Positions 30,600 to 59,330 of a stretch of 64,000 nucleotides of DNA are shown here, piece by piece; position 1 is the first letter of the stretch; every line of letters starts with the position of its first letter. The stretch is taken from contig LR746275.1 in assembly GCA_902729315.2 (NCBI GenBank), forward strand, positions 312,501 to 376,500. Reading direction: 5' to 3'. Source of the stretch: Spirodela intermedia. Its lineage: Eukaryota; Streptophyta; Magnoliopsida; Alismatales; Araceae. The notes below the pieces were generated by a model. That model had not been told where the DNA came from, did not search any database, and saw nothing but the letters and a program-made list of their open reading frames with translations. The position numbers and the translations under genes were made by a program.

Positions 30600-31999
30600 T
30601 TAAAAAATTCAATTGGTAATGAATAAAATAACCTTGTCTTTGAACTACAATTTGACTGTAATATTAAATTATTGGTAATTATTTGCCTACTTTACTTAGA
30701 TTACATCTTGAGGAAATTCCAGTTCCAAAAAAAGCATCATATATCACAATCAACAAACAGAAAATATAGTGTTTAGAATTTAACCGAATTATTTTGATCT
30801 CAGGATTATAAGATTGGGTGATCACATGATTGTATAGACTTACTATATGATCTATAGATAGAGATTAAATCTCAAGCCCATATTATATGAACATGCTATC
30901 TATCTCCAAGCAATAAATATACCATAACATATGCCATATATTCAAAGTCCCAATTAAAAAACAATATCTGCTGTCAGAATTTTACAATAATTATTTACAA
31001 CCTATACATATGTCACAACAACTCATACCATGTAAACTAGAGGGATAAGATAAACTTACGTAAGCTAGGAATGGCTGCGTATGGTAGTGTTTCCAAGTTC
31101 AACTCTGGTTAAATACTTTTTCATGTTTTTCTATTGAATATCATAAGTAAGAAATATTATTGAGAAAATATGCCTCTTAACTTATGAAATATTTTCCTTC
31201 CTACCATAAAATGTTGTACATACGTTGAAGAGGCTGAGGATTCACTTCATGGATTGTTCGGTTGGTTTGGAAATGAAGCCAAGCCCCTTCTTACTGTTAC
31301 TACCAACCTTTTGCCCGGGGGGAACTGAGGGTTGTGTTGCTACACTGCAGTTGCATGCACAAGAAGCCAGAAGATGGAGGATCAAGCTGAGTGCTCTCAA
31401 TCAGAGGCCATGCCTATCCTTATTTCGTTAGCCGGGGTACTGTTCTGTTTTCAACCAACACACCGCGGCGTATCTAGCCAGAGGGCCGCTTCGCACGGAG
31501 ATCCGTAGCTCATCATCGCCGATAGGTACCACGTGTGGGAGTCGCCAAGAGACCATACAGAGCGGGCGAGTAACAGTGCAACAGATTAACGGGAACTACC
31601 TTTGTTGATTGATCCATCGAGAGATAGACAGAGGTGTCCTCGAGAAACGGTTACTGTTGGGGATGATAAAAGGCTGAGCTGTAGACATTGACGATACTAT
31701 TGGTAGACATGGGGAGATGGTCTGCGTGACTCGCGAGGGTACTGGAGACCTCGAAACCTTCTATGTAGACCCTTCTCGGGATGAACATTCGCAGAATAAT
31801 CTGTCGGGAAGACGCTCTCTTCTGGGCATCGCCCATAACGTCGATAATTTAATGCCAACTTTATTTGGAAGAAGGGTAATGAATTCTTCCTAGCTGCTGT
31901 CCTTCATAATTGTGCCGTCAAAAGCAACAGTAGAAAACTTGACATTTCTTCTGAGAAGGCACAATTGGCCGACTTTCTTCGAGAGCTTCGCCCCTGTTA

Positions 32000-33730
32000 G
32001 AACATGGCGATTCACGCTATGAGTGCTCAACTGAAAGGAAAATACCAGTTAGGTGTCAGCCAAAAGAGATCATCACATTGAAATAGATACGTAGAAAATT
32101 AGACTAAAATTTATAAAGAAAAAGAGTTTGTACTGAAGTTCTGTTAAGGCGACAAGTTGCAACCTATCGATATACATTTATCCTCAGTTCTTTGACGTGA
32201 TATATATCACATTTCCAATGGGTGATACAGGCACTAATTTTGACATTTAATTAGTTAATTGACTGTTTGATGCAAGGGTGCGTGTATTTTTCTAAACACA
32301 TAAAGGTAATGAATGTTCCCATCAATTTCTTACCTTGTTCTTACAAATATTTTATAAAACATACAATGGGGTACATGTTCCTTCAAAACTGTCAATCGTT
32401 CATCCATTCTATAGTTCAATACTACTACTTATCTCAGCTGACCAAGTACATAGACATATAACCATCTCCAACTACTTTCATTTTTCCAGTAAAATTACTT
32501 TTAAAATATTTAATGATTAGAGAGGTAATTCCCCTGAATAATCTTCAAATATTTAAAATTATTTTTGGATGCATCCTACATTTTCATAGAAACAAGTCAT
32601 GGAAAAATCTACATTCAAGTAATAACTTATAACATAGCCAAAAGGATGAATGATTGAGGTGAGTCAAAAATTATAAGAGGGTGGGCAGGAAGAGATGAAC
32701 TATAAAGTCTGGTGAATGGGCTATGGCATTTACTGCATTGCCATTGTCTGATCAACACTATTGCATTCCCATAAATATGCAAAAAAATATAGCAATGGGC
32801 TACCTGGATTTTATACTTGCAGGTACAGGAGCTGCTAGAATAATCAATAAATTACAATCCTCACAATACTTTAAACAATGTGATTCATACACTAGGTGGG
32901 AATGTACAGTTAAAGTCCCTTTGGGATGATGTATGACCTAAGAGATGAGGTGAGTTGATAATTTTCTTGGCTATAGCGAAACCTTGCACAAATTGATTAG
33001 TTAATGGGACCAGTTCCACATCTACCACAAAATTAAGTTAAATGTGTAACATGCAAGGTATTTCAAATTTTATTTTGATTCATTTTTATGTTAGTTAGCA
33101 GTGTACCCTGGTATTCATTTACACATTTCAAATTAATTTATGTGTCTAGACCCAATAAATCTGGTATTTATTGATATCTCCATGAATTTAAAAATTAAAT
33201 TCGATCAAAATTTCAATTGAGTGCCAACATCTCCAAAAACACAGGCTGTGGGAAAAAATTGGATTAAAAGAGATATAGAGATGAGGGCTGGAAAACAACT
33301 AATATATTACTTTAGAGGTTCAAATGCAACAATCTCTAAGACAGATGATTTAAGGGACAGCCCTTGAACGTATACTTAAACATGATCAAGTGTAAACATA
33401 GTACGAAACGTTTTATAATTTGGATCTAGTATCTTTAAATCGGTCATGATTAGGCATAAATTGAAGTGGCTGATTTTCTAAAAAAAGTTGTAGGTATGTC
33501 TTTGGCTATAGAAAAATATAAAGGGAGAGTGCAGGAGAACATACCCTAATTGGGCCTGCAGTTCTTACTATCCCTCTCTCTCTCTTCGCTCACTTTTATA
33601 TTTGTTGTGCATGACACTACATTGCGTATCCTTATTCCTCTTAAAGTGTTGGAGAGAAGTTGCAGTACTCTCTCTCTTCCCTCCTAATTACCTCTCTTTC
33701 TCTCGTTCTCTCATTGTGTATCTTGTTTTC
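32000..33730. other. Left-arm DNA without recognised genes
   Basis: This is AT-rich, non-coding sequence between the 31.2-31.95-kb matched block and the Aux/IAA pseudogene. A CT-rich stretch at about 33570-33710 precedes the pseudogene, in the position of the GA-rich leader of the right-arm gene (mirror of 55700-55910). Nothing else is supported. Confidence 0.45.
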
Positions 33731-33737
33731 TCATCCA

Positions 33738-34611
33738 ATTTATGTGCTGGCATTGCTGCAATGAGAAGATAAGATTATTCCCCTTGTTCTTCTATAGACA
33801 GCAACACTCATCCTTGCCTCGCATCTATAACTCCCATCTCTCAATGGATGAAAGATCTCAGCAGCTACACTGTCCTTTCAATTCCAGGTGATACAACGAT
33901 AGCCATTTCGGCATTATAAATTGAGTCTCTTTTGCCTACAATCTTACTCATCCATTGGTTATAAGTTTTACTCTAGAATCAAACTTTATAATCCGTTGTT
34001 TCGTGAATTGTTAGCTTGAAATAGTTTTTTAATTTTCTCCTTCATTTGTGCTTTTCCTATGGACATTAGAGATTATGATTCAAGATGGGTACTGAGCAAT
34101 CCTAACCTTCAACAATGAGCGATCTTCTTTGTCATGGTCTACATAGAGAGAATTCCCATAGGCAAGGAATTAGATCTCTTTGCACAAGAGGGTTATGAGG
34201 ACTGTTTATGACCATTGTTAAATGTGAGAAAAGCTTCATGTTCCGTGGTCAGTCTGTGTCGCTATTTGAATCGCTATCCCAATTGATATATTTATGTGGT
34301 AAGTACATAAGCATGCATCAACTAACTTCTCTGTTAAATTTCATATCCTTGATCACTTAATGAAGGTCTGGATCCTGATCAAATGTTTGTCAAGAAAATC
34401 TATGTGCTGACCTATGATGATGTTGAAGGGGATTGGATGTAGGTTGGAGATGTCCCTTGGGTGTCTGATATCTGCCATCCTCCATGTATATAGGCATATA
34501 CAATTGTACTTGTACACTTCTAATTAGCAATGTTTTTTCCATCCTATCTTGGTCAGCATGTTCTTGTCATTTGTGAAGAGTTTGAATATCAGATGGGCTG
34601 ACAGACTCTAG
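33738..34611 (+). pseudogene. Aux/IAA pseudogene, mirror copy of the gene at 54768-55673
   Basis: All four exons of the right-arm Aux/IAA gene are recognisable in reverse orientation. Exon 1 (about 33738-33883) has an in-frame TAA after the AATGAGAAGA stretch and has lost the domain I segment (TELMLGLG in the other copy). Exon 2 (from about 34068) reads [16 protein letters not shown] followed by TGA, then a 22-base deletion within domain III that shifts the frame. Exon 3 (about 34367-34462) keeps a recognisable VLTYDDVEGDWM, followed by TAG, then VGDVPW. Exon 4 (about 34557-34611) reads MFLSFVKSLNIRWADRL and stop. It cannot encode a working repressor. Its sense transcript, however, would be antisense-like to the right-arm gene. 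Confidence 0.88.
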
Positions 34612-34639
34612 ATTGTCTTCTTTTCTCAAATTCTCATAT

Positions 34640-34645
34640 CTCCCT

Positions 34646-34693
<48 letters not shown>

Positions 34694-34700
34694 CTCTCTT
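34640..34700 (+). repeat. CT microsatellite
   Basis: A nearly pure CT/CCT run of about 55 bases follows the Aux/IAA pseudogene. It mirrors the short GA run at 54722-54740 beside the right-arm gene, but is longer here. Confidence 0.85.
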
Positions 34701-35109
34701 CATCTGTGTTGTGACTGGGAGCAAGAAGTAAGCATGGAAAAAAGCCACATGATTGAGATTAAGCTGAGGAATGCATCACACTTTTGATTGCCCCTCCTCA
34801 AATCGTACTGTTCAAGTAATAGTATATTGAATGGATGGACGTATACTTGGAAAATGTGTCTTCTTGATCCTTTTTTTTAGTTTCTCTATTAATAAATAGA
34901 TTATTTAATGCCTAGTACCCATGATTATCCTTTCACCAACGTCAGAAATTATTAAAATAGTTAAAATTCATTATAGTTGGCTTCACACTTCTAGTTACTC
35001 CCATTGCCCTTTGAAGGCTCTAACGAACGGGCTGTCATAGCGAGTGGGGATCCCTTTTGAAGAGGGTGTGAACCTTTTCTTTTACTCATTTATTTCCATC
35101 TCTTGACAC

Positions 35110-35760
35110 TCTCAATATCTTTAATTTCAAATATACATGTTAGAGCAATACGTCTTATATGGACTTCAACAAAAGCGATGCTTACACTGCAAAGTAAGAT
35201 AGAAAAAAAAACAACTCACAATAAGAGAAATAACATAAGGATTTTATATGGTTCGGAGGTTGGGCTCTTATGTCTACAAGCGACGATGAAAGCTTTACTA
35301 GATATGACAGTAGTACAAGAAATCACTCCTCAAAAACTTAGAGAACAAATCTCTAATCTTGACCCTTCTAAGATCTCAAAGAATAGATCCTTGATCTTAG
35401 CCCTCTAATGCACTCACCAACCAAAGAGATATTTCTTGGAAGCTCTCTCCCAAACACTCTTTCTTTATAGTAGAACAAAGGTAGAATGGAGTTGCTTTAT
35501 ATTGTCTTAAATGAGGAGAGGTGACTCTCTATTTATAGACACTTTGCGGCCACCTCGACAATTGTGCCAACATAAGGCTACAAAACCAGTGCCATGTCGA
35601 ATCGAGGGATAACGACAAAGGGAGGGGCAGGGGAGAGAGATAGAGGTGAAGTTACAAAATCATCACCAGTGTAGGCTGAAACAAAGCCCACAGGTTTCAT
35701 TAGGAAGTTCACAGGTTTAATTAGGTGAAGGGGAGACATGATCTGGAAGTCATTATATAC
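35110..35760. mobile_element. Possible solo LTR or small LTR-type insertion
   Basis: This stretch looks inserted: the mirror position in the right arm (near 54.3 kb) has no counterpart. It contains an ACATAAGGATTTTATATGGTTCGG segment near 35231-35255, of a type common inside plant LTRs, and possible TG-type start sequence near 35136. I could not find a matching second LTR, clear ends or a target duplication, so it may be another kind of repeat. The 101-codon open frame at 35103-35408 shows no domain. Confidence 0.35.
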
Positions 35761-37100
35761 AGAGCTATTGAAGTACTACCGAGTAGAGTTGCTCATGGTC
35801 CTACCGGGTAGAGTTAGGGATGGCTAGAATCTGAAATGATTGAAGTACTATTGGTAGATTGAGGAATTACAATTGTTTTTTTCTGCTCAGTAATGTTGAT
35901 GTATAGTAAAATCAAGCTACGAACTATTATTTCTCCAGCGAGGAATCAGTAATCTAATGTTTTCCATATTTGTACATGTTCCAGGCCTACAAATAATTAT
36001 TTGCGATTAAAACACAAGTATGACTATGTTCACTGTAAGCCTTGAAGGTATCCTTCCGAAGTGTGAAGTTTGGCTTTAATGAGTTGGCACCATTTTCTAG
36101 CTTCACCTAAAATTTTACCTAGATTGGCTGGACATCTTTTTAACTAGTGTTCTTTTATTTTATTTTTTCTTCATATAAGAGAAGAATCTGGCTTTCTGAC
36201 AGTATGAAAGTTTGGTCAGCACACTGAGTGATTTGTATACCAGGTAGTCTAATGATTTTTTAAGACGTTATTTGCATTAGTGCACTGGGTCCAAATTTTA
36301 CCAGGTCCCTACAATCCAGCTACTTTGAGTTCAGGGTAGGATTGAAAGTTAAATAATAAAATAAGTCACAGTAAGTTTGTCGCTTTGAGAGAGTCTTCGG
36401 ACGGGAATCTTGGTCCTACCATTTCACATCCATGTTGTCACCCTCATCATACCAATCTTTCCTCACCTAACATCATGCCTCGTGTTTCTGTCATCCCCTT
36501 GCATGCTATTTTCCCCATCTACAGACCGTTGTATTTTCTTGCATTCTGTAACATTTGCCAGTGCACTAGTCAGAAGTTTGTTTGTTGATGCACCCCGTCT
36601 GTGCACTATCCATGGCTTCCTGTGCCCCGATTTTTCACGCAAACAACTTAAGAGAATTAGGCATTGAATGCCTTTGCAAGGGTCAATGCACGTATGAAAA
36701 AGCTTACCTCGCGATCAAAATTTTCAAGGGCACAACTACAACATCAATAGGTTGAAGCACAAACCAATCCGTATTATGCTTGGTATAAGCTGCAATTAAC
36801 CTTTGGCTTAAATTGTCTTTTCACCATATATTATGCTCGACCTTTCCGTAAACTTTATTTCCTCCCTGTTAAATTAGCCAGATCCCCTCTAAACCACCCC
36901 TCCTCCCCTTAGAAAATATATATTAACTAACCTTATTTTTATATACATTGAATAGTTAATATAATATAATTAAGTATTCTATATAATATGATTCTATTAT
37001 TCTATATAGTTTAGCAAGTTTCAATAAGATGAAATGATGCGCCTGCAATCACTATTCCGCCCGCGATCTGGTTCTTGAGCCCGCTGGCTCTAGATATCTT
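35761..37100. other. Left-arm DNA, partly matched in the right arm
   Basis: No gene is supported. The part 36400-36830 matches 50950-51370 in reverse complement, for example the CATGCTATTTTC/CATCTACAGACC and GTGCACTAGTC stretches. The open frames at 36385-36667 overlap in two frames and are not conserved as protein in the other arm. Confidence 0.5.
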
Positions 37101-37560
37101 TGACTAGGCCGCCGAACATTCGCCATTGAACCCCCGCCAAATAGTAATATCCGGCAGCCGTATCCGGCTGCTGCATATTCTTCCCTGTAAAAGCTCCCTG
37201 AAGATGTACCAGAGGTTGTTCATGAACACAGTTCTACAAAATATGTTTGAAAAAAAGATATTTCGGTTTATATCTGTTCACGCTCTTGATTTAATCCGGT
37301 CCTACCTTTCAGTGCCACATCGAGCCCATAGCTCATTATTTGTCATCCAATATCGTATATATCACAGTTGTTCTTATCGAAAATTTAAGAGGTTTGGTGC
37401 GCGGCTCTGAGCGGCAGAAAAACTCGACGAGGCTCCGACGACTCCACCGTTCCAACCTTTAACAGCAAGCCACTGACGGACCTTGGACCCTTGCCAAAGG
37501 TTGATCAGAGATTTCCGGGAGAACTTTATCAGAGAGCTCCACAAAAGACGAGCAGGCATA
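37101..37560 (-). other. Mirror block with partly conserved reading frames (left copy)
   Basis: On the minus strand, 37374-37559 encodes 61 residues starting MPARLLWSSLIKF and containing SKVRQWLAVKGW. The mirror block at 49581-49775 encodes MPARFPNDLWSSLVRF and SKVRQWLVVKGW. A second piece near 37100-37240 pairs with 49940-50120 (left reading FMNNLWYIFREL, right VMNSLSYIFREL). These could be exon remnants of one gene. However, substitutions between the copies are not concentrated at third codon positions, and no known family is recognised. I treat this as an unexplained conserved block and not as a gene. Confidence 0.3.
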
Positions 37561-38390
37561 AATGCTTGCCAACATGTCGCTGGAGGAATGAAATCAGGAT
37601 AAAAGCGGCAATGGAGTCACAACGGCACCTAGTCTATTGTTATTATCATTGCTTTATTATTTATTATTATTCTCATTAACGTCGTCATCAGAATTTTGGA
37701 TTAAGTCACTAATCAGAGAAAGGTATGCGTGTCAAACAAGGTATTCAATTATCTTATCATTATGGCTACGCCTGATATTACTGTTCTTTCATGCAAGTAG
37801 CACCATTGATCAACTTTTGTCTATGAACGGTGTTTATAGCGACTTTCCTTAAACGAGCTAGTGGAGTAGGTTGTGGCTTTTGTGTGTCAAGAGGCTAGGA
37901 GTAAAACTCAAATAAATTCAAATAAATGACACTAGAAAGATCACATTCGAGTTGTCTCACTTCCGCTATGGAAGTAAACTATTTGAAGAAAATGCACAAC
38001 AAAGTAAATTCCATCTAGATTTCTTTCCGACCAACAGTGCAAAGATACACCTGCACATTCCTTCAACGACACCAATTTAAATTCCTAAAATTCGTCAAGC
38101 ACACACCATGGTGTCTTTTAGAAACTCATCCTTCCCCAATAAAAAAATAAAAAATAAATTTAAATTATTTATTTCCCATGACATAAAAAATGAAATAAAT
38201 TATGTATTCTACATAGTATCCTTCTGTAATTCATGTTACTTAGGATAATGACCAAATCTTGCTAATTTTCAGTAAGATTATTTCTGGAAATTTCTGTGGT
38301 TTTTTACCTCACATTCAAATTGTGTATAATTAGATTGTATGTCGCTTAACAAGTTGCTTTATTAAATATTTTTAGCCACTATGTCAAGTT

Positions 38391-38750
38391 TCTCATTATG
38401 CCAGAAAAATTAACTATTGAAAATATTTTCGTTTGGTATGTCTCTTACAGCCATGAATCTAACTTGGCTCAAAGTACACCCTTAAAAAAAGTGTTTATAG
38501 TTAGAAAGTGTTCCCGATTTTAGAGTTTGAATTCATGGACACCATCTACATGTAAGCAGACATATCACATGTGTTACTGTCATATCACGCATCAACCAAT
38601 CTCAAATATATGAAGACTCTGGATCTTCTAAAGAGGACACGTTAATAATCTATTCCTTGTCGGAGCGTTGGTGAAAGCCATGGAACCTGAGAGTAAAAAT
38701 AAAATTTCCTCGGATAGACATAAATATGAATGAGGGATCAACATGCTCCA
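38391..38750. repeat. Near-identical inverted island, left copy
   Basis: The reverse complement of 48139-48497 matches this 360-bp stretch with only three substitutions and no gap that I can see. Sequence just outside is clearly more diverged: the block at 39138-39305 has 11 differences in about 165 bases, and 38750-39010 has more differences and an indel. The island is AT-rich and non-coding in all frames I checked. Confidence 0.88.
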
Positions 38751-39110
38751 GGGTTCAACTACTCCATCGCCTGGAATGGAGCTCTAACTCCCCTTCGCGG
38801 TGTATGGAATCCCAACGTGATCCTGAGAGCAGTGGAGATCGTTCACTGCGCCGGAACTTTCACTCCCGGCCTACTGCCGGTGAGAGAGTCCGGCACTCTG
38901 GAAGCTCTTTGACGGGATGCCGGCGGCTCTTCGTTGGCTCCAACGGGCAAGAAAATTCTGAACAGTCGATTACTGTTGGACCTCCACCACAGCGGGAGGG
39001 TGGGTGAGCAGAGGCGGTCAAGTCGAGTAGTTCCGTGGTCTCCTCTCGTCGTCCGGAAAGATTCAGAAGCAGGTGCCTGTCGACGGGAACTCCCCGATTA
39101 ATTAGCATCA
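38726..39110 (+). other. Mirror block with overlapping open frames (left copy)
   Basis: The left copy is open in two overlapping frames (MNEGSTCSRVQLLHRL... and MRDQHAPGFNYSIAWN...), and the mirror at 47878-48162 is open in the equivalent first frame. A one-base indel near 38845 shifts the two copies relative to one another, so a segment reading VHCAGTFTPGLLP lies in different overall frames. No family is recognised. Coding potential is unproven. Confidence 0.3.
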
Positions 39111-39618
39111 CTGGTATTTACACCTGGTCATTAATTAATGTTGCCACCATCTTCATATAATTATTTCTCGAAGGAGAAAATGGTAATCTGGTTCGAAAAA
39201 TATTTTTCGATTCTTAGGAATATTATTACAATTGATCATATTGGTTCTCGTTCCATCCATCTTAAGCCATCTGAGAATTATTTCAACAAAGAAAGAGCTA
39301 TAAAATATGTAGAAAAATTGAAAATGAGATTGATTTATAGAATTATACGAATGAGGAACTAAAACTCAGGTCAAAATGTAGGTAAATATATCAGGGAGCC
39401 AAAATATACGCAAGAGTGTAGAAACCCGATTGTCGCATGTAGCCTCGAAGGCCCCTGCGTCTTGAGTAGCCTTTAATCTGTCTCTTTCTCATTTTCTCAT
39501 TCCCGTCAGATTGTTGCAAGCGAGAGAGGGAGTGGTTTTCAACCCTTAAGTTGTTAGCGCTCTACCACTTATCCAGATAGGAGCCACTGCATATCTTCCA
39601 TCACCATGGACTTCCATA

Positions 39619-39621
<3 letters not shown>

Positions 39622-39658
<37 letters not shown>
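39622..39658. repeat. AG microsatellite
   Basis: A pure AG run of about 37 bases lies in the left arm. The mirror region near 47.34 kb holds only a short CT run, so it expanded after the duplication or contracted in the other arm. Confidence 0.85.
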
Positions 39659-39660
<2 letters not shown>

Positions 39661-40553
39661 TAATCTAGAGGCCTTACGTTACTAATGTAATAAATATAAT
39701 CAGTAGTTTAAATCACCAAAACGTCGAATATAACTATTTTTAGAGGCCTTCAACTCCAGCTGAAGAACGAAAGGGCTTGTTTATGATTCAGTAGGTTTGT
39801 AGACTTTTAAAACTGAATAATCTATTTTTCTTATTAGTACATCAAAATAAATTACGAGGAGGTTTTCATTTCTCTATCTATGGAAGTAGATAGTCTTTCC
39901 GAATATATTATCAAATATTGGATTGAGTAGTATGTTGTATGCTGAATGAATCGTCATCCTGGGTGTACGCCGTTGGAGAGGTAGGGGTCGCAATCTCATA
40001 TTGCATTCCTCTGTGAACTTTGCCCAAAAGCATTGATCAATCTAGTCGGATATGCGCAATCTGAGTTATTAAAAATGGGGGGGAGTAGAGAGAGGATTAT
40101 GATTATGGACGATAGAGAACGACAGACTGCCCATATTACGAGAGAGAATGGGAAGACATGGTTCAATTTTCGAACTGCTTATTTTCTCTCGTGCAGCTTG
40201 TCGGCTGCTTGCTAGTCTCCCTAGGATGCACTTATTTTCTTGAAGAAGATTCGTAGCGGCGGACAAAGAACGGCCACCTCCCCTTCAAACGGGATTCCAC
40301 TCCGCCCTCTAGCTTCCTACCTATGGAGATCTTTTACCCTGCAGCTTCTCCCAGACCAACCCCCCTCCACAACCAATCCTCCTCCGCCCCCTCGCATTCA
40401 CAGGAGTATTCAACTCTGAATGAACCGGCCTTTTGAAACACTTTACCTCCCTCTCTAGCTCAAAAGTACAAAGAGGCTGTGGGTCTTTCAGCCTTCTCTT
40501 CAGAATCTGGACAGGATTTGACAGCATGTAGATTCTGAACAGCAATACTACTC

Positions 40554-40763
40554 TTGAGGCTATATCATCGCCGCAGGGGGATGGGAGACACCAAGAACAA
40601 CCGATTCATTGAGCTCCTCTCATGGTGCGGAAAATGCACTCGTTGGAAAGGTCCAGATCTGCGCCGCCTCCACAGTGACGCGACTGAAAGATTTGGACCT
40701 CTTTCCCGCCAACTTGGTACATCAGTCCGTAATAGCGTTCCTGAACTCCAATGGACAGAATAA
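40554..40763 (+). other. Mirror block, possible small unknown ORF (left copy)
   Basis: The frame encodes 69 residues, MRLYHRRRGMGDTKNNRFIE and onward with SWCGKCTRWKGPDL. The mirror copy at 45395-45601 (minus) encodes 68 residues with the same plan (GDTKNNRFIE, SWCGNCTRWKAPDL). In the first 60 aligned bases from GGAGACACC, five of six substitutions fall at third positions of this frame, which mildly favours coding. Further on the pattern is lost. I do not recognise the family, and neither copy shows an obvious full gene around it. Confidence 0.3.
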
Positions 40764-41150
40764 GCTTTATAAAGGTCGGAAGGGTCTAGGGCTGTAGGGT
40801 CGTTTGAACAATGTTGGACTACAGCGGCAAAACGGTAATGCTGAGGAGGGGAAGAAAAATGAGAGATTATCCTTGGGCAATGAGAGTCATTTTATGAAGG
40901 TCCGCCGTCCTCCCTCGGTGTTACATTCCGCGCTATGGAGGAAGAGAGAACTTCGTCTTGACAAGTGACTCTTCGGAGAAGGAGGATGGGTACTGCCGCT
41001 GGGTGCACAGCCTCGGATGAAGTAGTGCAAGGGGGGAAGGCCAGTGGAGTTCGTATAGAGAGGAAACTCTAACCTTACCAGCTCCGGGAAAGTCATTTTA
41101 ATTCTCATTGAATAGGGTACGTTAGTATTTTCTCAGCATGGAAGCGCAAT

Positions 41151-43701: not shown

Positions 43702-43817
43702 CGCTCTCCACGACGTACTCCTGTACCTTACCTACTCTTCTCAAAACAGATGTCTGTTCGTTTGGAACAACACGAGGAGAAACCAGAGTTCTTGCTTCAT
43801 TCAATCGAAAACTCTGT

Positions 43818-43826
43818 TATTTATAG
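43818..43826 (-). promoter_or_regulatory. TATA box of the DUF761-type gene
   Basis: The minus strand reads CTATAAATA about 117-125 bases upstream of the ATG at 43701, a usual distance for a plant core promoter with a short leader. Confidence 0.55.
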
Positions 43827-45601: not shown

Positions 45602-45620
45602 CAGTAGTATTACTGTTGAG
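45599..45620. repeat. Perfect short hairpin CTCAACAGTA/TACTGTTGAG
   Basis: Ten-base arms separated by GTAT form a perfect inverted repeat, starting at about 45597. The left-arm counterpart near 40540 is degraded. The half-site CAACAGTA recurs several times within the large inverted duplication. Confidence 0.7.
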
Positions 45621-45699
45621 AATCTTAAATGCTGTCAAATCCTGTCCAGATTCTGAAGAGAAGGCTTAAAGGTCAGCAGCCTCATTCAGAGTCCGATTG

Positions 45700-47300: not shown

Positions 47301-47566
47301 GAACAAGTATATGGTATGAATAATTACATTCTCTCTTCCCCTCTCTCTCTCTCTACAATCTGACGGGAACGATATAATGTGAAGCGAGAGACAGAGATAA
47401 ATGACTACTCGAGACGCAGGGGCCTTCTAGGCTACATACCACAACCGGGCTTCTACACTCTTGCGTATATTTTGGCTCCCCTGCAATATTTTACCACATT
47501 TTGGCCTCAGAATTTTAGTTCCCCATGCGTATAATTCTATAAATCAATCTCAGGAAAACTTAATGA

Positions 47567-48162
47567 TTAATAAACTTTCAATTTTTCTACATATCTTATA
47601 GCTCTTTCTTTGTTGACATAATTCTCAGATGGCTTAAGACGGATGGAACGAGAACCAATATGATCAATTGTAATAATATTCTTAAGAATCGAAAAATATC
47701 TTTCGGACCAGGTTACCCTTTTCCCCTTCGAGAAATTATTATACGAAGATGGTGGCAACCTTAATTAATGACCAGGTGCCGATACCAATGATGCTAATTA
47801 ATCGGGGACTTCCCGTTGACAACCCCCTGCTTCTGAATCTTCCCGGGCGACGAGGGGAGCCCACGGAACCAATCGACCTAACCATCCCTGCTCACCCTCC
47901 CTCTGTGGTGGTCCAACAGTAATAGACTGTTCAGAATCTTCTTGCCCGTTGGTGCCAATGAAGAGCTGCCGGTATCCCGTCCAAGAGCTTCCAGAGTGTC
48001 GGACGCTCTCAGCGGCAGTAGGCCAGGAGTGAAAGTTCCGGCGCAGTGAACGTCTCCACTGCTACAGGGTCGAGGGGATTCCATCCACCCCGAATGGGTG
48101 TTGGGGCTCCATCCCAGGCCATGAAGCGGTTGAACCTTGGAGCATGTTGATCCCTCATTCAT
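47567..48162 (-). other. Mirror blocks with open frames (right copy)
   Basis: The frame 47878-48162 (94 codons, MNEGSTCSKVQPLHGLGW) mirrors 38726-39007. The frame 47567-47758 (63 codons, MPPSSYNNFSKGKRVTWS) mirrors 39138-39362. The second pair is about 93% identical, but substitutions fall mainly on second codon positions of this frame, which argues against coding. Nothing here is recognised as a protein family. Confidence 0.3.
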
Positions 48163-48497
48163 ATTTATGTCTATCCGAGGAAATTTTATTTTTACGCTCA
48201 GGTTCCATGGTTTTCACCAACGCTCCGACAAGGAATAGATTATTAACGTGTCCTCTTTAGAAGATCCAGAGTCTTCATATATTTGAGATTGGTCGATGCG
48301 TGATATGACAGTAACACATGTGATATGTCTGCTTACATGTAGATGGTGTCCATGAATTCAAACTCTAAAATCGGGAACACTTTCTAACTATAAACACTTT
48401 TTTTAAGGGTGTACTTTGAGCCAAGTTAGATTCATGGCTGTAAGAGACATACCAAACGAAAATATTTTCAATAGTTAATTTTTCTGGCATAATGAGA
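48139..48497. repeat. Near-identical inverted island, right copy
   Basis: Reverse-complement partner of 38391-38750 with three substitutions. The three differences lie near 48265, 48211 and 48197; the rest is identical. It begins at the GGAGCATGTTGATCCCTC stretch and ends at the GGCATAATGAGAAA stretch. Confidence 0.88.
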
Positions 48498-49580
48498 AAT
48501 TTGATGTAGTGGCTAAAATATTTAATAAAGCAACTTCTTGAGCGACATACGATCTAATTATTTACAATTTGAATGTCCGGTAATGAAGCACCGAAAATTT
48601 GTCAAATAATCTTATTGAAAGGCCGAAACATTTGGTAAATTTGCTCAGCAGAATGAAATATACAATTGATACTATAGAAGTATAAATTAGTACCATTTTT
48701 TCATCCGCTTAATAATTATTTAGTAATAAAAGCCAAAGTGGTTAAGATAAACGAATCACAAACTAATGCACAGATTTCTAAATTATTTTGAACGCACATC
48801 TTTTTCTTAATGGGGGCAAGTATGAGTTTCTGAAATTCACCAGGTCGTGTATTTATACAATTTTAAAAACTTAAAGTGATATCATTGAAGACAAGCACAA
48901 GTGTATTAAAATGATAGCAATTTTTGCATTCTTAGTTGGAAGGGAACCAATTGAGGATTTATTTCTTTTTGCATTTTTTCCAAATTGCTTAGTTGCTTAG
49001 TGACCTCTAAACCTTAATGGAAAGTTATACAACTTAAGTATATCATTTTAATCTCATTTATTTTATAGCTAGCGTCTTCATACTCCAAAGGGAGTACTCA
49101 TCTGCTTTATAAGCTCTATCTCTTGATATGTATCCACCATAGGGCAGGCCTCCGAATTTTAGCAGGATTACTTTCATACTCTAGTGCATTTTTACCAACA
49201 TATGAAAGATGGTTATCATACAGCAAGGAACACGATACTCTTGAGTAACATTCAAAGCATGTTTAGGTTTAGGGGAATTCCATTATAGATATTTATATTT
49301 TATCTGGCATGTTTATGTAAAATCGCTATAAATGTCATTCACAGACAAAAGTTGATCAATGGTCGTACGTCCACGAAATCACAATATGACTAGATGTTGC
49401 GAGTACTGGGATAATTGAATACCTTGTTCGAAAGGCTCACCCTTTTTCTGATCGGTAACTTTACCAGAAATTATGATGAGGATAATAAAATGATAATAAA
49501 AATAGGCTAGGGATCATTATGATTCCATTGCAACTTGTTATCCTGATTCCGTTCATCCAGCAACTTGCTGGAGAGCATTT

Positions 49581-50390
49581 ATGCCTGCTCGTTTTCCGAA
49601 CGATTTGTGGAGCTCGTTGGTAAGGTTCTCCCAGAAACCTCTGATCAACCTCTGGCCAGCGTCCAAGGTCCGACAGTGGCTTGTTGTTAAAGGTTGGACG
49701 GATTACGGGAAAGCGGCAGAGTCGTCGGAGCCACGTCGAGTTTTTCTGTCGCTCAGAACCGCAGCCGGGATATGAGGGCATCTGAACGCCTATATTTTCA
49801 AAATGAACACCTGTGAAATATACGATAATAGATGAGGAATAATAAGGCGAAGCTATGGGCTTCGAAAAATATCTCATGTGGGTCTGAAAGGTAGGACCGG
49901 ATTAAATCAGAGATATTTCATTCAGACATCTTATCCTGCAGAACTCACTGGTCATGAACAGCCTCTCCTACATTTTCAGGGAACTTTTTGCAGGAAACAA
50001 TATTCACCAGTCGAATACTCCTGCTGGCTGGGATAAAAAGAGGAAATTCTATGGGGAAGTCAAATATCCCATGGCCAGCGGAGTCAAGGACCTGATCGTG
50101 GGTGGAATACACCCCGCAGGAAGGGTAGGCATGCTTTCTTCATCGTGAGAATCTTCGTCAAGAAGACCAGGACATGCTGGGCCCCATGGGTCAACTGGTC
50201 GGGGCCGAAGACAGAAGGTTTAATCTTAGAAGACGTTGATCCCTTATGTCGTATCCATGGCTTTCCCGAGAAGGTTGTATTCTACCTCCTGCGTGATATT
50301 GGACGTACAACTCCGGGATTATGGACTGTTTGGCTCGAGAGAGGCAAGATCGTTTTGAACTATTGGGCCAGTCTGGTTGCCAGGTAAGCC
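49581..50390 (+). other. Mirror block with partly conserved reading frames (right copy)
   Basis: Three consecutive plus-strand frames could be exons of one broken or unknown gene. They are 49581-49775 (MPARFPNDLWSSLVRF, SKVRQWLVVKGW), 49954-50148 (MNSLSYIFRELFAGNN, VKYPMASGVKDLIVGG) and 50145-50387 (LEDVDPLCRIHGFPEKVV, WTVWLERGKIVL). A CCTGCAG acceptor-like site precedes the second, and a GTAGGC donor-like site follows AGGAAG in it. The left arm keeps degraded versions of the first two. I do not recognise the protein. Confidence 0.3.
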
Positions 50391-51399
50391 CCGGAACAAT
50401 GTTAGATGTAGGAGTAGAACGACGGACGTTGCCGACCGAACAGTATGTTTTCTAATCAAATATTTCATGAAAAACTTGGATTCGGTAGTTTTTAGAATAT
50501 GTATAACTATAATAAGGTGTTATCAGAGGATTCGTCAGATGAAATCGCAAATACATGGATAATACAATACTATCCACCCTAAATCTAAATAAAATTTCGT
50601 GGAATATAAGTTCAGAGATACACCTTATTCCTTCTTAGACCCATGGATTAACGAATCAGTTAATAATGATGTTTCGAATTGGTGATTATTGGAGCATCAT
50701 GTCATGTCACTTATAATTTATCAAGAAACCTACACAAAATTAGATGACAAATCCAATAAATATCACACATATTCATTGAATAGATTGAGTAGTTGGAAGC
50801 ATATTTTATTCGTTATTAAGAATTTAGGCGGGTTAAATTTATGAATGGGGAGGAGAGGAGTTTTAGAGGTAATCTAGCTAACCTAATATGAAAAAAAATT
50901 GTAAAACTTAGCTCATGTGAAATTCAACTGTAATACATTGGGAAAAGACAGTTTACGCAAAGGTTAAATACAGCTTATACCAAAGACAATTGGGATTGGC
51001 TTGTACTTCATCCTACTGATGTTGAACATGTGTCCTTGAAAATTTTGATCTCGAGGTAAGCGTCTTCATACCTGTATTAACCCCTGCAAGGGCATCATGA
51101 TCTAATTCTATTAAGTTGTATGGATGAAAAAATGGGCCACAGGCAGGCATGGATGGTGCACAGGCGAGGTGCTTCAATGAATAGACTTGTGACTAGTGCA
51201 CTGCCAAATGTTACAGCATGCGAGAAAATATAATGATCTGTAGATGGTAAAATCAGGCAAGAAGATGACAGCTAGATAAGGCATAATGTTTAGGATAGGA
51301 AAGATTGGTAGATGGGGGGACTACATCGATGTGAAAATGGTAGGACAAAGATTCCTTTCTCAAGACTGTCTTAAAGCGACAATGCTATTATCAGTCCTA

Positions 51400-53600
51400 G
51401 TCTGAATATTTTCCTTTGATTGATTCTTAAGCGAACTTTACATTGTTTAACTTGTGTTCACCCAAAAGAAGTAAAAATCCAACAAAACAATGAAATTGAT
51501 AAGTATTAGGCTATAACAAGACTAAGAGGTTTGATTACTCAAGGAAAACATCATGAAATGTTTTTAAAATTATGAGAAATAGCAAGAAGAAACAAAAATC
51601 AACAGATCTTGTTTTCCAACTTACTAGCTCATTATGACAGCCCTCCAATAGAGGTGATGAACCATAGGGATCCCATAACAGGGGTTCAGCCTTGTATCCC
51701 CATTACGTATTAACTGTTTTGTTGATTAACATGAACCAATGAATGGGTAATTGTTCATCCTAGATACTTGTCCGAGAACATATGAGAAATTTTGTTAGGT
51801 AAAATTCTCTCTTTCATTTTATCCTTTTAAGTCGTAATCCTACCATGAAGCGAAATATTGATAAAATTCTACTAAACGTAGAAAAGAATACAGTCAATAA
51901 CAGAGATCGACTGCATAAAAAATGCATACACAAAATAAAATCATAAGAGCAAGCATCAGTCTCAGCTTGCACATGGAGTTTGTAGTGATTTGGTAAAATT
52001 TGGATCAAGTGCATTTATTTGAAGGAAAATAACATATTTGACAGATTAAAACCGATAATGAACATCGTGATCATGGGAATTAATGAAAGAATAAATCAAT
52101 ATGCTGACCGGTGTTCACCACCGGAGGGCAAAAGTTTCAATAATTTGGTTTCTAACTCTCTGTTGAAGAAAAACTAGGAGCCGTATTTGACGAATGAGGT
52201 GGAGCGGAATCAAATGTGTTACGTGAGTGATGCTTTTTCAGCAGGCCTCAGCGCTTCGACCCTCGATGGGTCGCTTCCCATACGCCAATCAGAGTGTTGT
52301 CAATACTGAGTGATTCACGAAGGGTAGGGGCACGGTGGGCATGAGGATGGATCCATGGAGGGTTAACCGGCGAAGCAGTGTTGGAGGGGCTGGAAAGGAG
52401 GCAGGACCTGACAGGAGTAGCGGTGGAGAAGGAAAAAAAATCATATAGGAGGAAGTGAGAAGTGGAGAGAAAAGTTGTAAAAAATGCAAAACGAAGAAGA
52501 GGAGAACGAAAGGGAAGAGCCAACTGATAAAAGAGAGACGCACAATGGCTGATGGTTCAATAGGAGAGTCGACAAGCACTGGAGACGAGCTAGAGAGAGA
52601 AGGTAACCGTGGCCAAATAGGCAGAGAGATTGAGACTAAAGCGAACCACTCAGTCGTCTAAAGCTAACCCTTAATGTGGTTCTTATCTCTCTATTGACCA
52701 CTCTGACATGTAAGTGCTAGGAGTAGAATTAAACTAGTTCATCCACTAGTCAGACAAGAATCTTAATTAAAGTTGAGATGTGTGGCATCCCAGATCAACA
52801 ATATTATAAATGTTCAGAGAATTATGGACAATTAGGTCTTTTGTCTCTAGATGGCGTCCTAAACCCAGATTACAAATAGGGGGTGACCCCGACTTTCGCA
52901 AGTGTAGTGAAGGATGAGCGACATTCTCCCCTCTGCGGCTGAGGGTCTGCCCAGGAAGTAAACTTGGGTCCAATCCTCTACAATTACATTACCTCCATCA
53001 CTTCAAGCATTTCCAATCTTCGATTTTGATTATTAGCTGCCCTTCGTCTCCAACTATGACATTTTGTAGGCTGTGCCTCAATACATTTAAGTTAATCCAT
53101 ACAAAAAATTTATCTCATAAATACCTCTTCACAAGTAGTGCTTCTTATCAACCAAGATTTGTCACTGTTAAGATCAACCTCTTACCCCCCAAAACACACA
53201 CACAAACATGAAAAGCATGAAAGAGTACTGAATCCTCGCAGTTCAATTTTAGGAATAAATCGACATTACTAATTTTAAGCAGAAATAATCATTTGAAATT
53301 CCTCAATCTGTCTAATGTACCTCTATCATTTCATATTCTAGCCGTCCCCAATTCCACTCCTGTAGCACAATAAGCAAAGAGATGGGGCCGAAACACGATT
53401 CTCTTGTCATTAGGTTACGCCTGCATTTGAGTGCTTCGAAATGGCTCTGTAGGAAATTCCTTCCAGACAATGAATGCTGGAGGCTTCTTAATGAAACCTG
53501 TACCCTCTGTTTCTGCTTGAGCTGGTCCAGTTTTCGTACCTCCAAGTTAGCATTGAACTGGCCCTCCTCAGCCCATTCACACCGTCAGCGCCTAATTGAA
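51400..53600. other. Right-arm DNA without recognised genes
   Basis: No left-arm match and no gene is visible. The minus-strand frames at 52248-52579 (91-96 codons, CT-rich on that strand) overlap in two frames and look like chance frames in purine-rich DNA. Confidence 0.45.
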
Positions 53601-53626
53601 TTGTGGGATAGAACTGGTACTACAGT

Positions 53627-53966
53627 CTTCCCCCTCTCTCCCTCTCTCTCTCTCTCGTTCTCTCTTCTTCCTACCACTCTCTCTCTCTCTCTCTCTCTCG
53701 TTCTCTCTTCTTCCTACCACTCTCTCTCTCTCTCGTTCTCTCTTCTTCCTACAACTCTCTCTCTCCCCCTCGTTCTCTCTTCTTCCTACAACTCTCTCTC
53801 TCTCTCTCTCCCCCTCGTTCTCTCTTCTTCCTACAACTCTCTCTCTCTCTCTCCCCCTCGTTCTCTCTTCTTCCTACAACTCTCTCTCTCTCTCTCTCCC
53901 CTCGTTCTCTCTTCTTCCTACAACTCTCTCTCTCCCCCTTCTCTTTCTTCCTCTCTCCTCTCTCTC

Positions 53967-54016
<50 letters not shown>

Positions 54017-54260
54017 CTCCTCTCTCCCTCTCTCTCTCCTCTCTCCTCTCTCCCTCTTTCTCTCTCTTGTCCCTCTCTCTCTCTCCTCTCTCCCTCTCTC
54101 TCTCTCCTCTCTCGCTCTCTCTCTCCTCTCTCCCTCTCTCTCTCTCTCCTCTCTCCCTCTCTCTCTCTCTCTCTCTCGCTCTCTCTTCCTTTTTTCCTAC
54201 CACTGTCTCTCTCTCTCTCCTCTCTCTTCCTTCCTTTCTTCCTTCCTTCCTTCCTTCCTA
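53627..54260 (+). repeat. 630-bp CT-rich compound microsatellite
   Basis: The tract is almost entirely C and T on the plus strand. Its first half is a nested minisatellite: about seven copies of a unit of roughly 35-45 bases containing CGTTCTCTCTTCTTCCTAC and a CT run of variable length (53655-53935). The second half is CTCTCTCC-type repeats, ending in a TTCC run (about 54226-54258). The 310- and 231-codon plus-strand frames and the 109-codon minus-strand frame across it encode only Ser-Leu or Arg-Glu repeats and are not genes. Confidence 0.92.
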
Positions 54261-54767
54261 CCCCTGTGTATATTGGGAGGCAAGGAGATGAAGAATGTCA
54301 GGAGTTGGAAATAAGAGAGGAAAAGACAAGGTTCACCCTCACCTCGAAAGGGTTTCTGAGGCTTACTATTTCTCCTTGCCATCCCGACTCGCCGTGATCG
54401 GCCATAGAGATTTCGAAGGGCAACGGGAACAACCAGAAGTGTGATGCCGACTATAATGATTTTTTACTATTTAATCATTTTCGATGTGTATGAGAGGACA
54501 ATCATGGTTACTAGGCGTTAAATAATCTAGTTACTAATAGAGAAAATGATATAGAAATGAATTAAGAAAGCTCGCATTTTCTAGGTATACGTCCATCTAT
54601 TCAATACATTATTATTTGAAGATTAAAATGGGAAGGGGGACGATCAGAAGTTCGATGCATTCCTCAGCTTATTGTCAATCATATGCTTCTTGCTCCCTAG
54701 GATAAAAGTTGCAACATAGACGAGAGAGAGAGAGAGAGACGACGAGAATTTCGGAAAAGAAGACAAC

Positions 54768-55673
54768 CTAGAGTCTGTCGGCCCTCCTGATCTTCAACCT
54801 CATCACAGATGACAAGAACATGCTGGCCAAAACATTGATAATCAGAAGGGCAGCAAATAAGTATGCGTATGATTATAACGTATAATCAGATATATGCCGA
54901 TTTATATGCAGGAAGACAGAGATATCTTACTCCCAGGGGGCATCTCCAACCAGCATCCAATCCCCTTCTTTATCTTGATACGTTAGCACAAGGGTTTTCT
55001 TGGTAGATACTTGATCAGGATCTAGACCTTCATTAAGTGATCAAGGCAATGAAATCGAACGGAGAAGTTAGTTGATGCATGCATACGTACTTACCGCATA
55101 AATATATCGATTGAGATGGCGACTCAGGCTGCACGACCGAGGGACATGAAGCTTTTCTCACATTTAATGGTGGTCGCAAACAGTCCTTTGACGGTTATAA
55201 TAAGGTCCTTATAACCGTTTTGTGCAAAGAGATCTAATTTCCTGCCTATGAGGCTTCCCTCCATGTACACCTTGACAAAGAAGGTAGCCCGTTGCTGAAG
55301 GTTAGGATTGCTCGGCACCCATCTTGAATCGTAATCTCTGATGTCCACAGAAAAAGCGCGAATGAAGGAGAAAAAGTAAGAAAACCTTTCAAGTTAACAT
55401 TTCACCGAACAAGACTGAGTTTCTAATTCCGAAATGTCTACCGTTGTATTACCTGGAACTGAAATGGCAGTACTGCTGCTGATTTGGAGAGCCTGGGGAC
55501 ATGCCGAGTCCCAACATCAACTCTGTGCTGAGATCCTTCTTCCGTTGTGAGATGGGAGTTATGGATGCGAGGTAAGGATGACTGCTGCTGTCAATAGAAG
55601 AACAAGGGGAATCATCTTTTCTTCTCATTGGGGCAACACCCACGCATAAATTGGACGAGAGAAGAAGATCCAC
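54768..55673 (-). CDS. Aux/IAA auxin-response repressor without degron, 182 aa
   Basis: Four minus-strand exons join in frame: 55453-55673, 55162-55337, 54931-55027 and 54768-54822 (549 nt, 182 aa). Aux/IAA proteins bind ARF transcription factors and recruit TOPLESS to repress auxin genes. Domain I is seen as [13 protein letters not shown] (EAR-like). Domain III is [20 protein letters not shown] with [10 protein letters not shown]. Domain IV is [20 protein letters not shown], then [17 protein letters not shown] and stop. The VGWPP degron of domain II is absent, as in non-canonical members that are not degraded by auxin in the usual way. The end of exon 2 is the weak point. A GTGAGA donor at 55161 keeps the frame. 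A stronger GTAAGT donor at about 55094 is separated by a TGA, seemingly because of an 8-base length difference relative to the left-arm copy. A GA-rich leader precedes the gene. Confidence 0.82.
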
Positions 55674-55799
55674 AATAGGATAGAACGAGAGAAAGAGAGG
55701 GAATTTGGGTGAGAGAAACTCAACTTCTCTCCAACACTTTAAGAGGAAATAAAGATATGCAATGTAGGGTCATGCACAATGGATAGCGATAGAGAATGA

Positions 55800-55912
55800 C
55801 TGAGAGAGAGAGAGAGAGAGCGAGAGAGAGAAGAGAGAGAAGAGAGAGAGAGAGGATAAAAAGGGGAGAAAAGGGGAGAGAGAGAGGAGTGAGAGGAGAG
55901 AGAGAAGAGAGA
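55800..55912 (-). repeat. GA-rich tract upstream of the Aux/IAA gene
   Basis: On the plus strand this is AG-rich with several pure AG runs; on the sense strand of the Aux/IAA gene it is a CT-rich stretch 127-240 bases upstream of the ATG, the usual position of a CT-rich plant leader. The left-arm pseudogene has a corresponding CT-rich stretch at 33570-33710. Confidence 0.75.
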
Positions 55913-55999
55913 GCTGGCATGATTCAAGAACAGCGGGCCTAGCCTTGGTATGTTCTCCTGTGCTTTCCCTGCACAGATTTCTCTAGCCACAAACATACC

Positions 56000-57600
56000 C
56001 GAAGCTTTTTAACAAAATCAGTCACTACAATTTCGGTCTAATCGTGACCGATTGCAAGGTACTAGGTCCATATTACCCTTGAGGAAATTTTAGCCAAATG
56101 TCATAGGGTTTTCCCTTGAATCATCTGTCTTGGAGAGGCAAGTGCATTCGAACCTGTAAAGTAGCATATCAGTTCCTTCTTCCCTTATGTTTCTCTCTTT
56201 CTCCTCTTATTTATCGCCAAAACCTGCAATGATGGAGCTGTTGACCCTGTAGTGTCGAAACTTTCATCGCAACATAATTTTTGCAGTCATGAGGATGTGT
56301 ATCAAATAGCAGTTTTAATTACTTTAGATATTTAAATTCACTTGAAATGTCAAGTAGATGTGTGCGTTAATCTCATCAATGTTAACAGGTTGATAATCTT
56401 AAGATATCATGAAAACTAATAAATGGTTCGCTATTGAATTAATACTACGGTGTGCAATAAACTAAAATAAAATTAATTCACAAGGAAATTGGAAATAAGT
56501 TACGTGTTACACATTTAATATATATTTTTTGTGGATATGGAACTTACCTCTTTATCTTATCGGTTTGTTCAAGGTTTTACTTAGAAATTACCAATTCACC
56601 TGATCCGTTAAATATGTGCCCAATGTGATGCTAATTCGTTTAATATACTTGCTTTAACTAACAGTGAGATATTCAATTTATTGATTATTCAACAAGCTCC
56701 TATATATGTTATTCTCAATTTCCAGGCCGCCTATTACTGTCATATTTCTATATTGTGGGCACAACATGTAGCTGAAATAATGTTGCTATAGTATATCTTA
56801 TAGCTCATTGACCAGGCTTGTACAGTTGATATCTTTCGGAACACCCTCTTCTCTTAATCTACTCTCAATCATTTATTATTGCAGCTAAAGTATTGAAAAA
56901 CATTTATTTAAGTATTAGTGTTAATTGAATGTAGATTTGTTCAAGAAAAAACTTGGCTTGGTGATGATGTAATATTAAATGTAGAATGGATTCCAAAATA
57001 CTTTTGAATATTTCAAGATCATTCAGGAGAATCATCGCTATAATCAGTAATTATTTTTAAAATTGGAAATATATAATTACTTTGAGATGATTATATGCAT
57101 ATGTACTTGGTAATAATGGAAACAATGATACTCGGATGAACAATCATTGACAATGCTGAAAGAAGGAACAAGTGCCCCATTATAAGTTTGACGAAATATT
57201 TGTAAGGCCTAACAAGCCAATGTGAACAATCATTATTTTTATAGGTTTCGAAAAATAGAAGAGCCCCTGTACCAAATAGCCAATAAATTAATTAACTGTC
57301 ACAACCTATGATGGCATCAGGCATTTGAGATGTGATATCATAATGGATATATATATGACGCGTTACACCAGATTACATAATCAAGGTGTTATTACTGAAC
57401 TGAGTCTAAAAATAATATTGATGGGTTGCATCTTGCATCCTAAACAGGAGTTCAACTCAAAGAAACTTATTTATAACTTTTGGTCAAAGTTTGATGTTTA
57501 TCTTTTCAATGTGATGATATCTTTTGGCAGACGACTAGTTGGCATTTTACTTTCGAGTTGAGAGCTGACATCGTAAATCACCTTGTTCTAACTGGAGCTG
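56000..57600. other. Right-arm AT-rich DNA without recognised genes
   Basis: No gene is supported. The 78-codon plus-strand frame at 57325-57561 has no recognisable domain. Mirror similarity to 32.0-33.5 kb is weak or absent. Confidence 0.45.
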
Positions 57601-57619
57601 AATTCACAAAGAAAGTTGG

Positions 57620-58350
57620 CCTTCTCAGAATGAAAGTCCATTCGTCTACAGTCGCCTTTGACGGCGCAATTATGAAGGACAGCAGCTGGGAGAATTGATT
57701 AGCCTTCCTCCAATAAAGTTGGCATTAACCTATCGACATGATGGGCAATTCCCGGAAGAGGGTACCGACCCGCCGACAGATTATTCTGTGAATGTTCATC
57801 CCGAGGAAGGGTCTACATAGAAATTTTGAGGTCTCCAGTACCCTCCTGGTTCACGCAGGCCATCTCCCCGTGGCCATCAACAGTACTGTCGATGGCTGCA
57901 GCTAAGCCTTTTCTCCTCCCCAACAGTAGTTTAAACTAATAAAGTTTGGCTCTTTGATGCGGTGCACAGGACAGCGCTCTTTCTCTCAATCTCTCTTAAA
58001 CGATCAATCGATATATCGATCAAGAAACGCAGTTCCAGTTACTCTGTTTCACTAGGACTCGGCCGGCCTGTAAGGTCTCATTGGAGACTCCTAGGACCGC
58101 CGGGGATAGCTGTCGGCGATGATGAGCTGGCCTAGGGATCTTCGTGGAGGCAGCCCTTCGGCTGAGGCCGAGGGCTGTCGGTTGAAAGGTGGACAGTAGC
58201 CCGGCCGAGGAAAGACGGTAGGCATGGCCTCTGGCTAAGACCTCTCAACAGCTAGTTCCTCCATTTTCGAGGCTTCTTGTGCATGAAACCGCAGCGCAGT
58301 AACGCAACCCTCGGGCCCCCTATGGAAAAGGTTGGTGGGACCAGTGAGAG
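57620..58350. repeat. Outer matched block of the right arm
   Basis: This block pairs in reverse complement with about 31240-31960. Shared stretches include CAGATTATTCTGTGAATGTTC with CATCCCGAGGAAGGGTCTAC (57778-57820), GACGGCGCAATTATGAAGGACAGCAGC (57661-57687) and GAGGCTTCTTGTGCATG (58268-58284). GC is higher than in the flanks. No coding frame is conserved between the two copies. Confidence 0.8.
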
Positions 58351-59330
58351 AAGGACGTGCATTAAACCGCAGCGAAGTAACCGCACGTCGTTTCCTAGCC
58401 AACGGAACAATCTATGAAGCAAATCCTCAGCGTCATCAACCTTCTAAACGGAGCTTCCGATACTTGGGATATTTTCAAGAGCCTTAAGGATGATATTCAC
58501 ACATTCCGAGCCGGGGATGTGATCCGTCATTTTCCCAATGGATGATCCAGTAGATGTCATTGATGCGTCGACCCTTCGGATCTACTTTTCCCTATATTTT
58601 TCTTCATCTTTCTTTTGTCCATCACTCAAGAGGTGTTAGCATGTTTAAAATCCGATTTCACTTGGTTCTAAACTCATAAAGGAATTTTTTTGGGGTCTCC
58701 ATTCTTGTCTACGTCATTTTATGATAGGAAGGACAATATTTGATAAGGCAAGAGACATGTGTCCTCAATAATCTTTTAACTATGATATTCATTAAAAAAA
58801 GAAAGGCTTTAACCATAGCTGAACTGTAAAATACTAACCTATGCAGCCATTGCTTGCCGAAGTAGAGTATTATTATCTCCCTTTTTCAACTGATCATTTT
58901 TATGGCTACATATTATAGGTTGTGCAGTGTTGTGCCCTGCTGCATTGCGTTTTGATAAACTAAGAAAATGATCTGTTCCAAATATTTATTGTAAATCCTC
59001 TGGCAAGGAAAATTGTTCTCTGAACTACGACTTTAAATAGATTACATACACTACGTTATATTCAGTTCTTAGAGATAGATAATATGATCACATGACAAGG
59101 CCTTAACTCTGTGCTATCATGTAATCGTCTAATCCTATACTAAATGATTTCATTAAATTTCAAAACACTATTTTTCTATCAATTGATTGAGATATATGAC
59201 GGATGCTTTGTTTGCAATTGGAATTTTCCCAAGATAGAAGTAGAGAGAAATGGGCTTAAATAATTATCTATTTCAATTTGACTTTTGAAATTTTAGTGCC
59301 ATGGTTCAAATGGCTGAAAAAATAGTACAT

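Follow-up and report, generated by a model that had tools for sequence, protein, structure and literature searches.

The window, a stretch of 64,000 nucleotides of Spirodela intermedia DNA, carries an old, locus-specific inverted duplication that is not a transposon. Its two mirror-image arms (positions 30,705-41,154 and 44,966-59,235) are reverse-complement copies flanking an unpaired core. Each arm contains one non-canonical AUX/IAA gene without the degron motif; both genes point toward the core, 20 kb apart, and only the right copy retains an intact reading frame. The two arms are strongly diverged over most of their length, and a short tract downstream of the genes is nearly identical in both of them, probably as the result of copying from one arm to the other.

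Results

Extent and architecture of the inverted duplication

When the window was compared with itself by blastn, 11 gapped inverted blocks were obtained between 31.0-41.15 and 44.97-58.88 kb, many short simple-repeat matches being left out of this count. A twelfth block (30,705-30,815 paired with 59,235-59,123, E=1.4e-14) was recovered by a wider search of 20.0-31.3 against 58.6-74.0 kb, which reached 10 kb past the right end of the window. In this search, no homology was detected outside the arm ends, the next best match having an E value of 0.15. With these 12 inverted collinear blocks, the left arm (plus strand) measures 10,450 bp and the right arm (minus strand) 14,270 bp.

On the minus strand, the left arm matched the right arm in 11 places (8,451 aligned bp, 5,079 bits), and no match was observed on the plus strand or on either strand of a right arm reversed without complementing. 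All 12 blocks were found in strict mirror order. Together with the clean strand controls, this order bore out the inverted duplication with an off-centre core that had been proposed in a first-pass annotation of the same DNA. That annotation had also counted at least seventeen blocks in strict mirror order; the order was recovered but the count was not, a difference that finer cutting may explain. The midpoints of the paired blocks moved from 43,078 on the core side to 44,970 on the outer side, in agreement with the drift from about 43.05 to about 44.9 kb noted previously, and they did so unevenly (43,443 then 43,494; 44,695 then 44,704).

The core, or spacer (41,155-44,965; 3,811 bp), showed inverted self-matches that were short and weak, the best of them being 19 bp long, and the identity between the arms dropped to 41-45% beyond 41.2 kb, at the core boundary. 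Over the whole arms, the identity was 76.9% across 8,709 columns, from which those of 35,100-36,350 had been dropped because the arms align poorly there. In this poorly aligning part (35.1 to about 36.35 kb), values of 30-69% per 100 bases were recorded, with a single step at 80%; in most of both arms, the identity lay between 60 and 90% per 100 bases and gaps were numerous.

Copy number and repeats

Four queries (31.0-41.2, 44.9-53.5, 54.25-59.24 and 38.30-39.52 kb) were searched against the Spirodela intermedia genome by a procedure that skips simple and very common sequence; the strips 30,705-30,999 and 53,501-54,249 lay outside the queries. The candidates scored were 39 of 75, 3 of 3, 40 of 451 and 2 of 2, respectively. 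No second copy of an arm was present among the matches listed for the four queries. Besides both arms, these matches comprised simple repeats, places of a single dispersed repeat and a match of 155 bp, the last of these (73% identity) being the single outside match of the 44.9-53.5 kb query. As the listing for 31.0-41.2 kb omits the query's own place, uniqueness rests more on the other three queries. The segment 38,300-39,520 alone, for which all candidates were scored, occurred at two places in the genome, both of them the arms. A transposable element of the inverted-repeat type was considered and rejected, since multiple dispersed copies were not present among the matches listed; the exclusion of an ordinary transposon in the first-pass annotation is upheld by the lack of any transposon sign and of a second listed arm copy.

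The dispersed repeat is confined to the left arm (35,138-35,573, ends approximate, about 436 bp) and was found at 35 or more other places with 74-82% identity, while the right arm contains a CT array of 594 bp. The midpoint drift had been regarded as expected if insertions gathered mostly in the right arm. This remains conjectural: no dispersed repeat was listed for 44.9-53.5 kb, and the clearest repeat insertion belongs to the left arm. Losses of sequence from the left arm, next to the dead gene, may equally well account for the remaining difference in arm length.

One intact and one dead AUX/IAA gene

The right copy (54,768-55,628, minus strand) corresponds to a four-exon model (55,628-55,453, 55,337-55,162, 55,027-54,931 and 54,822-54,768) with GT/AG introns and a full frame of 167 amino acids, and is apparently intact. 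A public Spirodela intermedia protein, P0001 (158 amino acids), derives from this gene by a somewhat different choice of exons. The right-arm protein matched PF02309 over residues 73-163 (E=7.7e-25, 88.4 bits for a cut-off of 22.7), so the AUX/IAA PB1 region (domains III-IV) is present. By arm, PF02309 matches were located at 34,392-34,460 (plus strand, with one TAG) and at 54,927-55,001 and 55,160-55,294 (minus strand). With respect to the domain II degron (GWPPV), no GWPP occurs in the right-arm protein, and this motif was carried by only one of the 28 relatives used for the tree (Amborella). The protein also contains LMLGLG, an LxLxL-like stretch that it shares with the IAA20/IAA30/IAA31 type.

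Six solved AUX/IAA or ARF sequences matched the right-arm protein, the best being IAA4 (2m1m). Among its protein relatives (the best 120 of 267 listed), all carried PF02309, and their names included IAA20, IAA30 and IAA31 and very often IAA4 or IAA4-like. In a tree of 29 rows, built with 28 of these 120 relatives and without a canonical outgroup, the partner of the right-arm protein was a Colocasia protein (92/77); the end branch leading to the right-arm protein is long, at 0.75 for a median of 0.19, which makes its placement unsure. A second Spirodela intermedia gene of the non-canonical type paired with another Colocasia protein (96/93).

The left copy (33,761-34,611, plus strand) is a pseudogene with 49-bp and 22-bp gaps in its exon sequence and three in-frame stops, which fall at codons 4, 75 and 143 in the frame of the right copy (142 of the 167 codons being gapless). 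The comparison of conserved positions was restricted to 76 codons, each of them free of gaps in the two copies and conserved in 80% or more of 17 relatives; all other codons were dropped. Of these, 48 were unchanged, 13 were changed in the left copy only, 3 in the right copy only and 12 in both (9 to the same residue), so that the right gene departs from 15 of the 76 conserved residues. Three residues that the relatives conserve (lysine 81, arginine 91 and lysine 92) are kept in the right copy and altered in the left. Between the copies, pS was 0.246 and pN 0.140. The identity amounted to 82-84% in introns 1 and 2, 62% in intron 3 and 78-87% in the exons; conservation is not clearly higher in the exons than in the introns, as expected with one copy free to drift. 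These data suggest that the gene was already divergent at the time of the duplication and that the right copy subsequently remained constrained, despite its own 15 departures.

Other reading frames and RNA genes

An 89-codon frame in the core (43,432-43,701, minus strand) is weakly DUF761-like (PF05553, 17.3 bits, E=0.0035, below the cut-off of 22), and a related frame is found on contig C1. A second coding gene in the arms was rejected as a candidate: the conserved blocks listed align in several frames and carry 1-bp and 7-bp gaps, and the pieces 44,988-45,416 and 49,461-49,901 gave no Pfam match at E<=0.1. A search for tRNA or RNA genes yielded none. Within the window, no Rfam family attained its gathering score, and four weaker matches all fell outside the near-identical tract.

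A near-identical tract and uneven divergence

Positions 38,389-38,750 of the left arm pair with 48,138-48,499 of the right arm with 3 mismatches in 362 bp. This tract is part of a wider zone of 92% identity (38,311-39,469 and 47,405-48,576; 92 mismatches in 1,147 columns, tract counted in). Neither the gene content of the arms nor the 99% tract appeared in the first-pass annotation. In both arms, the tract is situated downstream of the AUX/IAA copy and does not adjoin the core, and its left edge is sharp.

K2P distances were calculated for 11 stretches, whose limits were set by eye after the profile had been viewed. Outside the zone, they were 0.22 for the gene, 0.33 for 31.3-33.1 kb, 0.25 for 36.4-36.9 kb, 0.24 for 37.2-37.9 kb and 0.18 for 40.5-41.2 kb. 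In or near the zone, values of 0.16 (38,290-38,387), 0.019 (38,388-38,762), 0.15 (38,763-39,110), 0.080 (39,111-39,350) and 0.155 (39,351-39,515) were obtained. The most diverged stretch counted (39,633-40,337, K2P 0.39) is closer to the core than the tract, which argues against conversion. Thus nine stretches ranged from 0.15 to 0.39, the exceptions being 39,111-39,350 and 38,388-38,762, and the step at the latter was about eight-fold or more relative to nine of the ten other stretches.

The longest identical run was 205 bp, compared with at most 57 in 1000 shuffles, and the best-segment score was 92, compared with at most 15 in 300 shuffles. These shuffles, which assume independent sites, establish that the tract is not due to chance; they do not choose between conversion and constraint. 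The seven differences in 38,388-38,762 comprised six transitions and one transversion, compared with transition-to-transversion ratios between 0.75 and 2 for the ten other stretches; over seven sites, this excess is weakly in keeping with young neutral differences.

A 41-codon frame inside the tract is intact in both arms. For this frame and for a 75-codon frame in the adjoining 92.5% stretch, no protein relatives were found by searches whose reach is limited for such short queries. In the left copy of the tract, no unusual RNA fold was detected (z -0.41 and +1.33).

Discussion

Taken together, the results point to a probable history in which one inverted duplication included the AUX/IAA gene, the left copy decayed and the tract was later converted from arm to arm. 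A non-canonical AUX/IAA gene and the sequence flanking it would have been copied once, in the duckweed lineage, into an adjacent inverted position; the resulting arms would be separated by the 3.8-kb core, with the two genes facing each other. The right copy would then have stayed under continued selection, while the left reading frame was lost and the non-coding sequence of the arms for the most part drifted. As the arms are still homologous and lie close together, break repair in one of them could sometimes have been templated by the other. In this way, ectopic gene conversion may recently have overwritten at least 362 bp (38,389-38,750 with 48,499-48,138); parts of the 1.1 kb around this tract may have been overwritten at an earlier time. 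With even substitution rates, the age of the most recent conversion would be roughly one tenth, or less, of that of the older stretches. We propose no calendar age, since the Spirodela rate is low and uncertain; a very low mutation rate has been measured in the other species of the genus (PMC6423293).

The step in identity must reflect later copying or else strong constraint, and with one species and two copies these leave nearly identical traces. The tract could be a strongly constrained non-coding element, an enhancer or a non-coding RNA, kept since the duplication without any conversion. The near identity, the 205-bp unchanged run, the sharp left edge, the location downstream of a gene copy in each arm and the intact 41-codon frame would all be compatible with this explanation, which we nevertheless consider unlikely: the left gene supposedly served is dead, no Rfam family or unusual fold was associated with the tract, neither short frame gave a protein relative within the reach of the search, and no further genomic copy of the zone was listed. 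Conversion is preferred, without being overwhelmingly favoured, since we judge it unlikely that a plant would maintain constraint over this length next to a dead gene. That the tract should be a previously undescribed, almost immutable regulatory or RNA element acting on its own, even beside a dead gene, seems doubtful. As to the arrangement itself, the copies might first have arisen in tandem or by transposition, an inversion having later turned them toward each other; the present arrangement alone does not distinguish this from an inverted duplication. Such a course is improbable, for it calls for one more event, whose breakpoints would have to fall near the ends of the arms, and the mirror order is complete across the 12 blocks.

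Two further explanations concern the palindrome as a whole. Inverted copies of one gene facing each other on the same molecule could, by read-through across the core, give double-stranded RNA and with it silencing of the AUX/IAA gene, and long hairpin RNA had indeed been anticipated in the earlier annotation. The arms, gappy and mostly 60-90% identical, are too diverged for long perfect duplexes except in the tract, where at best a duplex of about 362 bp, closed by a loop of more than 9 kb, would form; in addition, the gene copies are 20 kb apart and no microRNA family reached its gathering score. As judged from the sequence, a functional hairpin-RNA locus is therefore very improbable. Palindromes are also a known artefact of long-read assembly, and a false palindrome or a chimeric join would be expected to have near-identical arms. 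The 77% identity observed in 8,709 aligned columns, the numerous gaps, the lesions in one gene copy and the repeat confined to one arm make an artefact scarcely credible. In the genome report (PMC7645714), long-read assemblies of two clones are described together with FISH checks using BACs, which are not specific to the palindrome locus.

The main text of that report contains no occurrence of "palindrom", "inverted", "gene conversion" or "auxin". In a limited literature search, no dedicated treatment of the AUX/IAA genes of Spirodela intermedia was found, and none of the articles listed for palindromes in plants, for ectopic conversion and for conserved non-coding sequence described a comparable locus in its title or the start of its abstract. 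According to PMC7645714, Spirodela comprises two species and propagates mainly asexually. The locus is a candidate converting palindrome without known sex linkage, in a mainly asexual genus. If conversion were confirmed, it would be a natural case in which copying between arms homogenises no more than a patch, and this patch would sit beside intact and dead copies of an auxin-response gene 20 kb apart.

Like proteins of the IAA20/IAA30/IAA31 type, as presented in PMC5796205 and PMC12247088, the right-arm protein combines an AUX/IAA PB1 region with the absence of the domain II degron; it differs from them by its long branch and by its inverted pseudogene partner. With regard to palindromes, gene conversion has been reported on a plant sex chromosome: in the study on the W of Salix purpurea (PMC7023750), palindrome W.P1 is about 42.7 kb long with a spacer of 2.6 kb. 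The likeness lies in a plant inverted repeat with a spacer and in conversion confined to part of the arms. In Salix, however, a 20-kb sequence is on average more than 99% identical among four arms, compared with 77% between the Spirodela arms; the palindromes belong to a sex-determination region, whereas the Spirodela locus has no known sex linkage; and conversion is supported there with a second species, while here it is deduced from one. The palindromes of mammalian sex chromosomes, as described in PMC8981503, likewise have large inverted arms and arm-to-arm conversion. At the Spirodela locus, inverted arms around a spacer are present without the arm-wide identity above 99% of a converting palindrome: the mammalian arms keep this identity, whereas in Spirodela only about 0.4 kb does.

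Other sequence features of the window

Within the right arm of the inverted duplication, a CT microsatellite array of 594 bp (53,634-54,227) was observed downstream of the intact AUX/IAA gene, at a distance of about 0.5-1.1 kb, and the corresponding position of the left arm showed no clear counterpart of this array. At 35,138-35,573 the left arm contains a dispersed repeat, about 430 bp long, for which at least 35 other places in the genome, with identities of 74-82%, were present among the matches listed; at least four of these listed places are adjoined by CT/GA microsatellite matches.

Outside the arms, an AT-rich minisatellite with AAATTTG-like units was detected at 20,608-21,018, in a 10-kb stretch whose GC content is 25-29%, and related sequence was also present at 25.2-25.7 kb. 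At the window start, the first part of a 459-codon open frame (1-1,377) contains degenerate acidic repeats of 14-19 residues each; no match to this frame was obtained in Pfam. Reading frames of high GC content occupy 15,585-17,950. When two pieces of them were searched against Pfam, no match was returned; by their motifs, the frames may resemble a PIF-type bHLH factor.

Finally, the unpaired core carries a frame of 89 codons on the minus strand (43,432-43,701), to which a related frame is found on another contig (C1), and which is weakly DUF761-like.
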